This document shows positions 11,534-62,298 of a stretch of DNA of 64,000 nucleotides, piece by piece (the stretch's first letter is position 1; every line of letters starts with the position of its first letter). Below the pieces are notes generated by a model. That model saw nothing but the letters and a program-made list of their open reading frames with translations, was not told the DNA's origin and made no database searches. The position numbers and the translations under genes were made by a program. The DNA lies in assembly GCA_018262975.1 (NCBI GenBank), contig JADFDG010000010.1:62001-126000 (forward strand), in the 5' to 3' direction. This DNA is from Gammaproteobacteria bacterium (lineage in GTDB: Bacteria; Pseudomonadota; Gammaproteobacteria; Pseudomonadales; JADFDG01).

Positions 11534-12922
11534 ATGAGCAAGCAGACCCACCAGACCTGGGGTGGCCGGTTCACCGAGCCCACCGATGCCTTCGTCGCCC
11601 GCTTCACCGCCAGCGTCGACTTCGACAAGCGCCTGTACCGCCACGACATCATGGGCTCCATCGCCCACGCCACCATGCTGGCCAAGGTCGGTGTGCTGAC
11701 CGCCGCCGAGCGCGACAGCATCGTCGACGGCCTCAAGCAGATCCAGGCCGAGATCGAGGCCGGCACCTTCGAGTGGCGCGTCGACATGGAAGACGTGCAC
11801 ATGAACATCGAGGCGCGCCTGACCGAGCGCATCGGCATTGCCGGCAAGAAACTGCACACCGGCCGCTCGCGCAACGACCAGGTCGCCACCGACGTGCGCC
11901 TGTGGCTGCGCGACGAGATCGATTTCATCCTCGGCGAGATCCGCCGCCTGCAGCAGGGCCTGGTGGAACTCGCCGCGCGCGAGACCGACACCATCATGCC
12001 GGGCTTCACCCACCTGCAGACCGCGCAGCCGGTAACCTTCGGCCACCACCTGCTGGCCTGGTTCGAGAACGTCGACCGCGACCACGCGCGTTTCGCCGAC
12101 CTGCGCAAGCGCGTCAACCGCCTGCCGCTGGGCAGCGCGGCGCTGGCCGGCACCACCTACCCGATCGATCGCGAACTGGTGCGCGACCTGCTGGGCTTCG
12201 ACGACGTCTGCCGCAACTCGCTGGACGCGGTGAGTGATCGCGACTTCGCCATCGAGTTCTGCGCCGCCGCCGCCATACTGCTCACGCACCTGTCGCGCTT
12301 CTCGGAAGAGCTGGTGCTGTGGACCAGCTCGCAGTTCAACTTCATCAACCTGCCCGACCGCTTCTGCACCGGCAGCTCGATCATGCCGCAGAAGAAGAAC
12401 CCGGACGTGCCGGAACTGGTGCGCGGCAAGACCGGCCGCGTGAACGGCTCGCTGATCTCGCTGCTGACGCTGATGAAGTCGCAGCCGCTGGCGTACAACA
12501 AGGACAACCAGGAAGACAAGGAGCCGCTGTTCGACGCCGTGGACACGGTGAAGGGGTGCCTGCGCGCCTTTGCAGACATGGTGCCGGCCATCGAGCCGAA
12601 GCGCGAGGTGATGCGCGAAGCGGCGCGCCGCGGTTTCTCCACCGCCACCGATCTCGCCGACTACCTGGTGAAGAAGGGCGTGCCGTTCCGCGAGTCGCAC
12701 GAGATCGTCGGCAAGGCGGTGCGTTTCGGCGTCGAGCAGCAGCGCGACCTCGCGCAGCTGACGCTGGACGAGTTGCGCCAGTTCTCGCCGGAGATCGGCG
12801 AGGACGTGTTCGCCGTGCTGACGCTGGAAGGCTCGGTGAACGCGCGCAACCACATCGGCGGCACCGCGCCGGCGCAGGTGCGCCTGGCGGTGGCCGAGGC
12901 GCGCCAGCGCATCGGCGGTTGA
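11534..12922 (+). CDS. argH: Argininosuccinate lyase
   Basis: ArgH splits argininosuccinate into arginine and fumarate, the last step of arginine synthesis, as a cytoplasmic homotetramer. The protein has 462 residues (E. coli 457). It opens with [20 protein letters not shown], carries [12 protein letters not shown] and the family signature [16 protein letters not shown] near residue 280, which includes the catalytic Ser. The ATG at 11534 matches the expected N-terminus although the frame is open further upstream. It faces algZ and is followed closely by lptM-lysA-dapF, so these probably form one biosynthetic unit. Confidence 0.97.
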
Positions 12923-12932
12923 GGTGATGGCC

Positions 12933-13154
12933 ATGAAGCGCATCGCGGGTGCGGGCCTGCTGGCGGCGGCGACGCTGCTGTCCGCCTGTGGCCAGATGGG
13001 GCCGCTGTACTTCGACGAGGATCCGCCGGCCGACCAGCTGCCGCCGTCCATCAGTCGTGCGCCGGCCGCCGACGATGAGCGGACCCAGGATGCCGTTCCT
13101 GCACCCGACAGTAACGAGGGGGCCACGCCCCCGACCGTTCCCGAGACCGAGTAG
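12933..13154 (+). CDS. lptM: LPS-assembly lipoprotein LptM (YifL-like)
   Basis: LptM is a tiny outer-membrane lipoprotein that helps the LptD/LptE LPS translocon mature. The 73-residue product has a signal peptide and lipobox LLSAC, then the family's hallmark G-Q-M-G-P-L-Y-F right after the Cys. The ATG at 12933 is preferred: GAGG at 12921-12924 is correctly spaced for it and too close for the GTG at 12924 or ATG at 12927. Everything after about residue 40 is low-complexity. The last part (SNEGATPPT) is encoded by a REP palindrome arm, so the C-terminus has been extended or replaced by a repeat. Confidence 0.88.
   Translation: MKRIAGAGLLAAATLLSACGQMGPLYFDEDPPADQLPPSISRAPAADDERTQDAVPAPDSNEGATPPTVPETE
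13111..13134 (+). repeat. Single REP arm inside the lptM coding region
   Basis: GTAACGAGGGGGCCACGCCC followed by CCGA is a near-consensus left arm with stem GGGGGC-CAC-GCCCCC. It is read in frame as S-N-E-G-A-T-P-P-T, so its GTAA is not a stop here. No inverted partner is nearby. Confidence 0.78.
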
Positions 13155-13158
13155 CACC

Positions 13159-14409
13159 ATGAATCCGTTTGAATACCGCGCCGGCGAGCTGTACGCCGAG
13201 AACGTTCCCGTACGCGAGCTGGCCGCGCGCTTCGGCACGCCGCTGTACGTCTATTCGCGCGCCATGCTCGAGGATCGCTACCGCGCCTTCGATCGGGCGT
13301 TCGGCGACTACCCGCACCAGGTGTGCTTCGCCGTGAAGGCCAATTCCAACCTGGCCGTGCTCAACGTGCTGGCGCGCCTCGGTGCCGGCTTCGACATCGT
13401 TTCCGGCGGCGAGCTGGAGCGCGTGGTGGCCGCCGGCGGCGATCCGAAGAAGGTGGTGTTCTCCGGCCTCGGCAAGCAGGAGCACGAGATCCGTCGTGCG
13501 CTGGAGCTGGGTATCGCCTGCTTCAACGTGGAGTCGGATGCCGAACTCGACCGCATCAACGCGGTGGCCGGCGCCATGGGCGTGAAGGCGCCGGTGTCGC
13601 TGCGCGTGAACCCGGACGTGGACGCACAGACGCACCCTTACATCTCCACCGGCCTGAAGGAAAACAAGTTCGGCGTGGACATCGCGAAGGCGCGCGAGAT
13701 CTACCGCCGCGCCGCCGCGCTGCCGCACATCGCGGTGACCGGCGTGGACTGCCACATCGGCTCGCAGCTGACCACCACCGCGCCGTTCCTCGATGCGCTC
13801 GACCGCGTGCTGGCACTGGTGGACACGCTGGCCGCCGACGGCATCGCCATCCGCCACCTCGATCTCGGCGGTGGCCTGGGCGTGCGTTACCGCAACGAGA
13901 CGCCGCCGGAGCCGGCTGAATACATCGCGCAGGTGCTGGCGAAGCTCGGTGATCGCCGCCTCCCGGTGTACATGGAGCCGGGCCGCGCCATCTGCGCCAA
14001 CGCCGGCCTGTTCGTCACCCGCGTCGAGTTCCTCAAGAGCAACGACCACAAGAACTTCGCCATCATCGACGGCGCCATGAACGACCTCATCCGCCCGGCG
14101 CTGTACAGCGCGTGGATGGACATCGTCGCCGTGCAGCCGCGCACCGATGGCACCGCGCCGCAGTCGTGGGACGTGGTCGGCCCGGTGTGCGAGACCGGCG
14201 ACTTCCTCGGCAAGGATCGCGAGCTGGCCATCGCCGCCGGTGACCTGCTGGCGGTACGCTCGGCCGGTGCGTACGGCTTCGTGATGAGCTCCAACTACAA
14301 CACCCGCGGCCGTGCTGCCGAGGTGATCGTGGATGGCGGCACTGCCAGCATCGTGCGTCGTCGCGAGACGGTGGCCGACCTGCTGGCGCTGGAATCGCTG
14401 CTGCCTTAA
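13159..14409 (+). CDS. lysA: Diaminopimelate decarboxylase
   Basis: LysA decarboxylates meso-diaminopimelate to L-lysine with PLP. The 416-residue protein shows the PLP-binding Lys in C-F-A-V-K-A-N-S-N (Lys 60), the barrel phosphate-binding GGG of [10 protein letters not shown], and the active-site [11 protein letters not shown]. The C-terminal [11 protein letters not shown] is typical. The ATG at 13159, five bases after the lptM stop, fits the family N-terminus. lysA followed directly by dapF places the last lysine step beside the epimerase that makes its substrate. Confidence 0.97.
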
Positions 14410-61188: not shown

Positions 61189-62298
61189 ATGGGCCACCGT
61201 ACCCCTTTGTATGAGCAGCACCTCGAGGCCGGCGCCAGGATGGTCGACTTCGGCGGCTGGGACATGCCGATCAACTACGGTTCGCAGATCGCCGAGCACA
61301 ACCTCGTGCGCACCGCCTGCGGCATGTTCGACGTCTCGCACATGACGGTAGTCGACGTGGCCGGCAAGGACGCGCGCGCCTTCCTGCGCCGCCTGCTGGC
61401 CAACGACGTCGACCGCCTGGGCTTCGACGGCAAGGCGCTGTACAGCGCCATGTGCAACGCCGACGGCGGCGTGATCGACGACCTCATCGCCTACCGCGTC
61501 TCCGTGGCCGCCGACCACCAGGCCTACCGCCTGGTGGTGAACTGCGGCACCCGCGAGAAGGACCTCGCCTGGCTGGCCGCGCAGTGCGCGCCGTACGCGG
61601 TGGATATCCGCGAGCGCGCCGACCTCGCCATGGTCGCCGTGCAGGGCCCGCAGGCCATCGACAAGGTGTGCGCGCTGCTGCCGCAGGCCGCGGCGCAGAT
61701 CCGCGCGCTCGAATATTTCTCCGGCATGGACGTGCCGGACCGCGCCGGCTGGTACGTCGCGCGCACCGGTTACACCGGCGAGGACGGCGTGGAAATGATC
61801 CTGCCGAACGACGCGGTGGTTGATTTCTGGAAAGCCCTGCTCGCCGCCGGCGTCGCGCCGGCCGGCCTTGGCGCGCGCGACACCCTGCGCCTGGAAGCGG
61901 GCATGAACCTGTACGGCAACGACATGGACGAGTCCGTGTCGCCGCTGGCCGCCGGCATGGGCTGGACCATCGCCTGGGAACCGAAAGACCGCGACTTCAT
62001 CGGCCGTGCCGCGCTTGAAGCGCAGCGCGCAGCCGGCAACCTGCCGAAGTTCTTCGGCCTGGTACTCACCGACAAGGGCGTACTGCGCGGCCACCAGAAA
62101 GTGATCGTTGACGGGGTCGGCGAAGGGGAGATCACCAGCGGCACCTTCTCGCCCACGCTCGGCTACAGCATCGCGCTGGCGCGCGTGCCGGCCGGCACCG
62201 GTGCCACCGCGAAAGTGGACATGCGCGGCAAGCTCGTCGACGTGAAGGTGGTGAAACCGCCTTTTGTGCGCCACGGCAAGCAGGTTTACAAGGTTTGA
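61189..62298 (+). CDS. gcvT: Glycine cleavage system T protein (aminomethyltransferase)
   Basis: GcvT transfers the methylene group from the lipoyl arm of GcvH to tetrahydrofolate and releases ammonia. The 369-residue protein (E. coli 364) starts [20 protein letters not shown], carries [17 protein letters not shown] and [13 protein letters not shown] with the folate-binding Asp and Arg. GGCAGG is a weak ribosome site for ATG 61189. First gene of the gcvT-gcvH-gcvPA operon. Confidence 0.97.

Follow-up and report, generated by a model that had tools for sequence, protein, structure and literature searches.

Can a mobile palindrome become part of a protein? The question is raised by lptM, a lipoprotein gene of a Gammaproteobacteria bacterium (assembly GCA_018262975.1; genome size 3.3 Mb). 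The gene lies in a stretch of 64,000 nucleotides, positions 62,001 to 126,000 of contig JADFDG010000010.1 (contig C1 below), which is referred to here as the window. From the letters of the window alone, it had been predicted that one arm of a repetitive extragenic palindromic (REP) element is read in frame as the C-terminus of LptM. We confirmed that the arm is a REP and that it lies in the lptM reading frame.

A REP in the reading frame of lptM

The 25 nt at 13111-13135 read GTAACGAGGGGGCCACGCCCCCGAC. They differ at 2 of 25 positions from the consensus of a large REP family, which was built from 188 copies as [CT]GTAG[AC]GAGGGGGCCATGCCCCCGA[CT]. Allowing at most 2 mismatches, a 22-nt part of the consensus had 278+260 = 538 matches genome-wide; the reversed control had 0+0, and in a set of 144 other genomes from the order no match was seen at this threshold. 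For the bare 15-nt core, again allowing 2 mismatches, the genome-wide counts were 333+314 against 6+7 for the control. REPs were surveyed in relation to genes in 1,597,704 bases (48% of the genome), where 390 sites had at most 5 mismatches in 25 and the reversed consensus had 0. The membership of the arm in a REP family, which the original prediction had proposed, is thus established.

Compared to the consensus, the lptM copy has GTAA in place of GTAG and a C in place of the loop T, and its 6-bp G/C stem is intact. The GTAA head is rare (3/390 copies; 353/390 have GTAG), and an A precedes the head, as it does here, in 9/390 copies. The C in the loop is a commoner variant, present in 11% of the 188 aligned copies. 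A GTAG head characterises the family and is absent from the lptM copy. We conclude that the lptM copy is, by descent, a decayed member of the GTAG REP family. Having lost the GTAG head, it is probably immobile.

The lptM copy is unpaired, whereas 246/300 intergenic copies had an opposite-strand copy within 120 nt. No inverted partner, even a degenerate one, was found near it; the best opposite-strand match nearby had 10 mismatches and overlapped the same palindrome. It lacks the arrangement of two close inverted REPs that defines REP doublets forming hairpins (REPINs) and bacterial interspersed mosaic elements (BIMEs). A single gene in the genome matched Y1_Tnp (46.7 bits; cut-off 23) and is, by this family match, a putative REP-associated tyrosine transposase (RAYT)-type gene. 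Inverted REP pairs flank this gene (C25:134341+, 134385-, 134932+ and 134976-). As called, C25:134456-134935, it ends on the GTAG of the REP that starts at 134932.

The host gene was identified as lptM with the NCBIfam model NF047847 (38.4 bits against a cut-off of 27.7); the Pfam model PF13627 scored narrowly below its cut-off (24.7 against 27.3). The product has a lipobox followed by CGQMGPLY, which fits the CGxxGPLY region, and the gene adjoins lysA. From the lipobox to the TAG at 13152-13154 the frame is unbroken, the REP included. Translation of lptM would therefore run on from the LptM domain into the REP without meeting a stop, and an LptM product carrying the REP peptide is expected. 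The codons from 13110 (AGT AAC GAG GGG GCC ACG CCC CCG ACC) encode SNEGATPPT, the residues that had been predicted. GTAA is not read as a stop, again as predicted, and is split between codons as A-GT/AA-C. The arm had been placed at 13111-13134 and does sit there, but its codons start one base earlier and the last ends at 13136. Similarly, the REP lies in the tail of LptM but not at its very end, where VPETE and the stop follow (Table 1).

Table 1. Coordinates in the window of the lptM REP, its codons and the surrounding genes
Feature	Position	Strand	Remarks
REP element	13111..13135	+	single unpaired copy, 2 mismatches of 25 to GTAGCGAGGGGGCCATGCCCCCGAC
Nine REP-derived codons, S N E G A T P P T	13110..13136	+	in the lptM frame
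V P E T E and TAG stop of lptM	13137..13154	+	downstream of the REP
lptM	12933..13154	+	73 aa from the ATG at 12933; upstream start at 12924 possible
lysA	13159..14409	+	named by eye; starts 4 nt past the lptM stop and 23 nt past the REP
argH	11534..12922	+	named by eye; upstream of lptM in the same orientation

Other REP-like copies in the window lie on the + strand at 236, 2094, 20846, 20880, 44820, 51729, 53327 and 61059 and on the opposite strand at 271, 2126, 23909, 44853, 53387 and 61097. These were taken from the 20 largest repeat families listed, and the set may be incomplete.

Reading frames of REPs within genes

Using gene calls from a home-made gene finder, the 390 REPs were sorted into 300 intergenic copies, 63 that reached over a 3' gene end (in sense orientation and at one offset), 21 that were wholly intragenic and 6 with another overlap. 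The 21 intragenic copies were found in 15 genes, 16 of them in sense and 5 in antisense orientation. The consensus REP offers three phases in the sense direction: one runs into its own TAG stop, one encodes V-A-R-G-P-C-P-R and one encodes [CR]-S-E-G-A-M-P-P-T. Fifteen of the 16 sense copies, in 12 genes, shared the lptM phase and encoded EGAMPP-like residues, and 0 were in the other open phase. Eleven predicted genes besides lptM therefore carry a REP in the lptM reading frame. A sign test over genes for the single sense frame (12/12) gave p = 0.0005. In an earlier survey of 456,000 bases, contained in the larger one, 8 of 9 intragenic REPs were in the lptM sense frame. The one sense copy in a third phase, at C28:36014-36038, has a GTGG head and lies 11 nt from the called start of its gene, which is probably miscalled.

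The head of the element also differed between sites. GTAG was intact in 10/15 of the sense copies in the shared phase compared to 275/300 intergenic copies (Fisher p = 0.0085; the copies are not all independent, since some sit together in one gene). Of these sense copies, 5/15 had a T ahead of GTAG, a combination that would encode Cys, compared to 183/300 intergenic copies (p = 0.055), and we do not claim avoidance. In the surveyed 48% of the genome, 63/174 predicted genes ending in TAG take their stop from a REP head, compared to 2/175 of those ending in TAA. The share of TAG stops supplied by REPs in this genome is large; the principle that a REP head can serve as a gene stop already appears in the part of PMC3733652 available to us. 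A tentative reading of these patterns is that the REP sequence is suited in advance to do no damage where it lands in sense orientation, within a gene or at its end: in one phase its GTAG would end the protein, in another a mild, flexible E-G-A-M-P-P-T would be added, and the remaining phase would be excluded. If so, a module of about nine residues would have been reused in LptM, TatB, MnmE, RsmG, BioH, MnmC, AceF and others, with the same element as the source of roughly one in three TAG stops in the surveyed part. We put this forward with some reserve.

Origin of the lptM copy

We propose that a single REP, moved by the RAYT-type transposase of the genome, landed in the lptM tail, a variable region of low complexity. 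Its phase would keep the frame open, and the REP would now contribute nine residues of flexible chain. Tolerance of a mild peptide phase is the likely mechanism, and the copy may now drift as ordinary coding sequence. Taken as a whole, the account of a RAYT-moved REP that is tolerated in the lptM tail and translated as nine residues seems to us quite probable. It implies that RAYT activity would have brought the REP to lptM, that the REP would have entered the gene rather than been reached by extension of lptM into a downstream copy, and that the function of LptM would not be affected by it.

The other host genes bear on whether REPs enter coding sequences. MnmE, BioH and MnmC were identified by PDB matches, and RsmG, EctA (fused to a MarR-like part), AceF, TatB, MetG and a HipA N-terminal-domain protein scored over NCBIfam cut-offs. 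Of five further host genes besides lptM, one was scanned, with nothing over cut-off, and four were outside the scan. In the alignment of MnmE with 9hip, the 9-residue run EGAMPPTAP had no counterpart, and the extra residues there numbered 11 in total. Between two matched parts of BioH, the query had 39 residues compared to 1 in both 1m33 and 4nmw; this stretch holds two REPs and the greater part of another. In these alignments with the nearest PDB homologues, the additional residues of MnmE and BioH coincide with the REP peptides, which indicates that REPs have entered genes in this genome. The MnmC gene has one sense and one antisense REP in an interdomain linker. In TatB (C25:185321-185845) the tail largely consists of REPs, three in sense orientation in tandem and in one frame and one antisense. 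In MetG (C13:29992-32682) an antisense REP is read as VGGMAPS between the catalytic and C-terminal parts.

Support for insertion from homologues is uneven, and several observations weigh against our account. Compared to the more distant 3geh, MnmE had fewer extra residues, and these lay in separate places. The sense copy of MnmC aligned to 3awi without a gap, and it was at the antisense copy that 8 residues (about IGGMAPSL) had no counterpart. The MetG alignment ended short of the REP. The 5/21 intragenic copies that are antisense fall in two other frames (3 in one and 2 in another). The gene calls came from our own script, and some gene identities were assigned by eye. For LptM itself, 6/90 other LptMs had at least as many mature residues as the 55 found here; this length is within the range of the family and can be accounted for without an insert. 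An empty lptM site was sought in near relatives, and none was found in the genus or family among the genomes compared, which include no other member of either.

We compared 118 lysA loci, recognising LptM by pattern in 91 (own locus included; 89 distinct mature sequences) and in none of the remaining 27. None of the other 90 LptM tails contained the motif EGA[MT]PP, and the 300 nt upstream of lysA in these loci differed from the REP by 9 to 14 mismatches, compared to 2 here. The median mature length of the 90 others was 34.5 residues (range 18-74). All of these relatives are remote, with LysA identities of at most 75% (the best, 75%, among the matches listed for 80 loci), and the best LysA in two order-wide draws was 73%; the draws matched 136/145 genomes at 1e-120 and 35/390 at 1e-190, own genome included. 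A tail shared by all relatives with diverged DNA, which the original prediction had named as the outcome that would speak for chance resemblance, was not seen among these remote relatives. A widely shared tail is excluded, and the event is undated because the compared relatives are remote.

A variant of the proposed account is that the REP was originally located in the lptM-lysA gap, and that lptM later lost its stop and was extended through the element as far as the following stop. We consider this order of events possible, though doubtful. It would agree with the 300/390 REPs that are intergenic, many of them a few bases behind a gene, with the gap of only 4 nt between lptM and lysA (9 nt is commonest, in 22/91 loci) and with the mature length of 55 against a median of 34.5. 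However, remote LptMs whose genes overlap lysA (loci L042 and L114) end in E/T/P-rich sequence similar to VPETE, which fits an old tail end left behind an insert, and MnmE and BioH indicate REP entry within genes.

Retention of the hairpin for an RNA effect on the lptM-lysA transcript, with coding incidental, appears unlikely. The 6-bp stem has stayed intact despite decay elsewhere in the lptM copy, and 48/390 REPs lie within 30 nt ahead of a predicted gene start, as such an effect might lead one to expect. Nevertheless, the folding of 13095-13170 was no better than that of shuffled sequence (z = -0.12), and an intact stem may merely reflect a young copy. That a G/C- and P/T-rich tail resembles a REP by chance is extremely improbable. 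At the REP site the tail is a low-complexity, G/C-rich sequence, but the absence of matches to the reversed consensus in the 1.6 Mb surveyed, the absence of the family from 144 other genomes and the distance of at least 9 mismatches at all 90 other LptM loci argue against chance.

Relation to known palindromic elements

The lptM locus adds a clear example of a mobile palindrome that has become part of a protein, here an envelope-assembly (outer-membrane) lipoprotein from the sole representative of its family among the genomes compared. In the parts of PMC3116915 and PMC2817692 available to us, REPINs and BIMEs are associated with RAYT; most copies here likewise have an opposite copy nearby, but the lptM copy is single. 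Rickettsia palindromic elements (RPEs) are also repeated palindromes that lie in frame in many unrelated genes, as far as the available text of PMC10969869 and PMC3733652 describes them. They are about 150 bp long (PMC10969869), whereas the REP here is 25 bp, and those of R. conorii are CGTC-tagged (PMC3733652), whereas the REP here is of GTAG type and is not an RPE.

A close parallel is with the intragenic GTAG REPs of PMC3733652. Intragenic REPs, including C-terminal ones, are already described there, and a translated REP in lptM is therefore not a new phenomenon. The REP TAG often serves as a stop there too, and tRNA synthetase and tRNA-modification genes are among the hosts. That survey excluded hypothetical proteins shorter than 120 aa, and LptM here has 73 aa. 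A statement of a one-frame rule was sought in the literature and none was found, a weak negative since many journals and the residue table of PMC3733652 were outside the search. The one-frame pattern is the part most worth following and deserves a proper survey. With one sense frame in 12/12 genes and more frequent loss of GTAG within genes, selection on the encoded peptide as a force shaping REP survival becomes testable. The available text of PMC3733652 names no preferred frame, whereas 15/16 sense copies here share one, and its Additional file 3, which lists the encoded residues, could reveal whether the same rule holds there.
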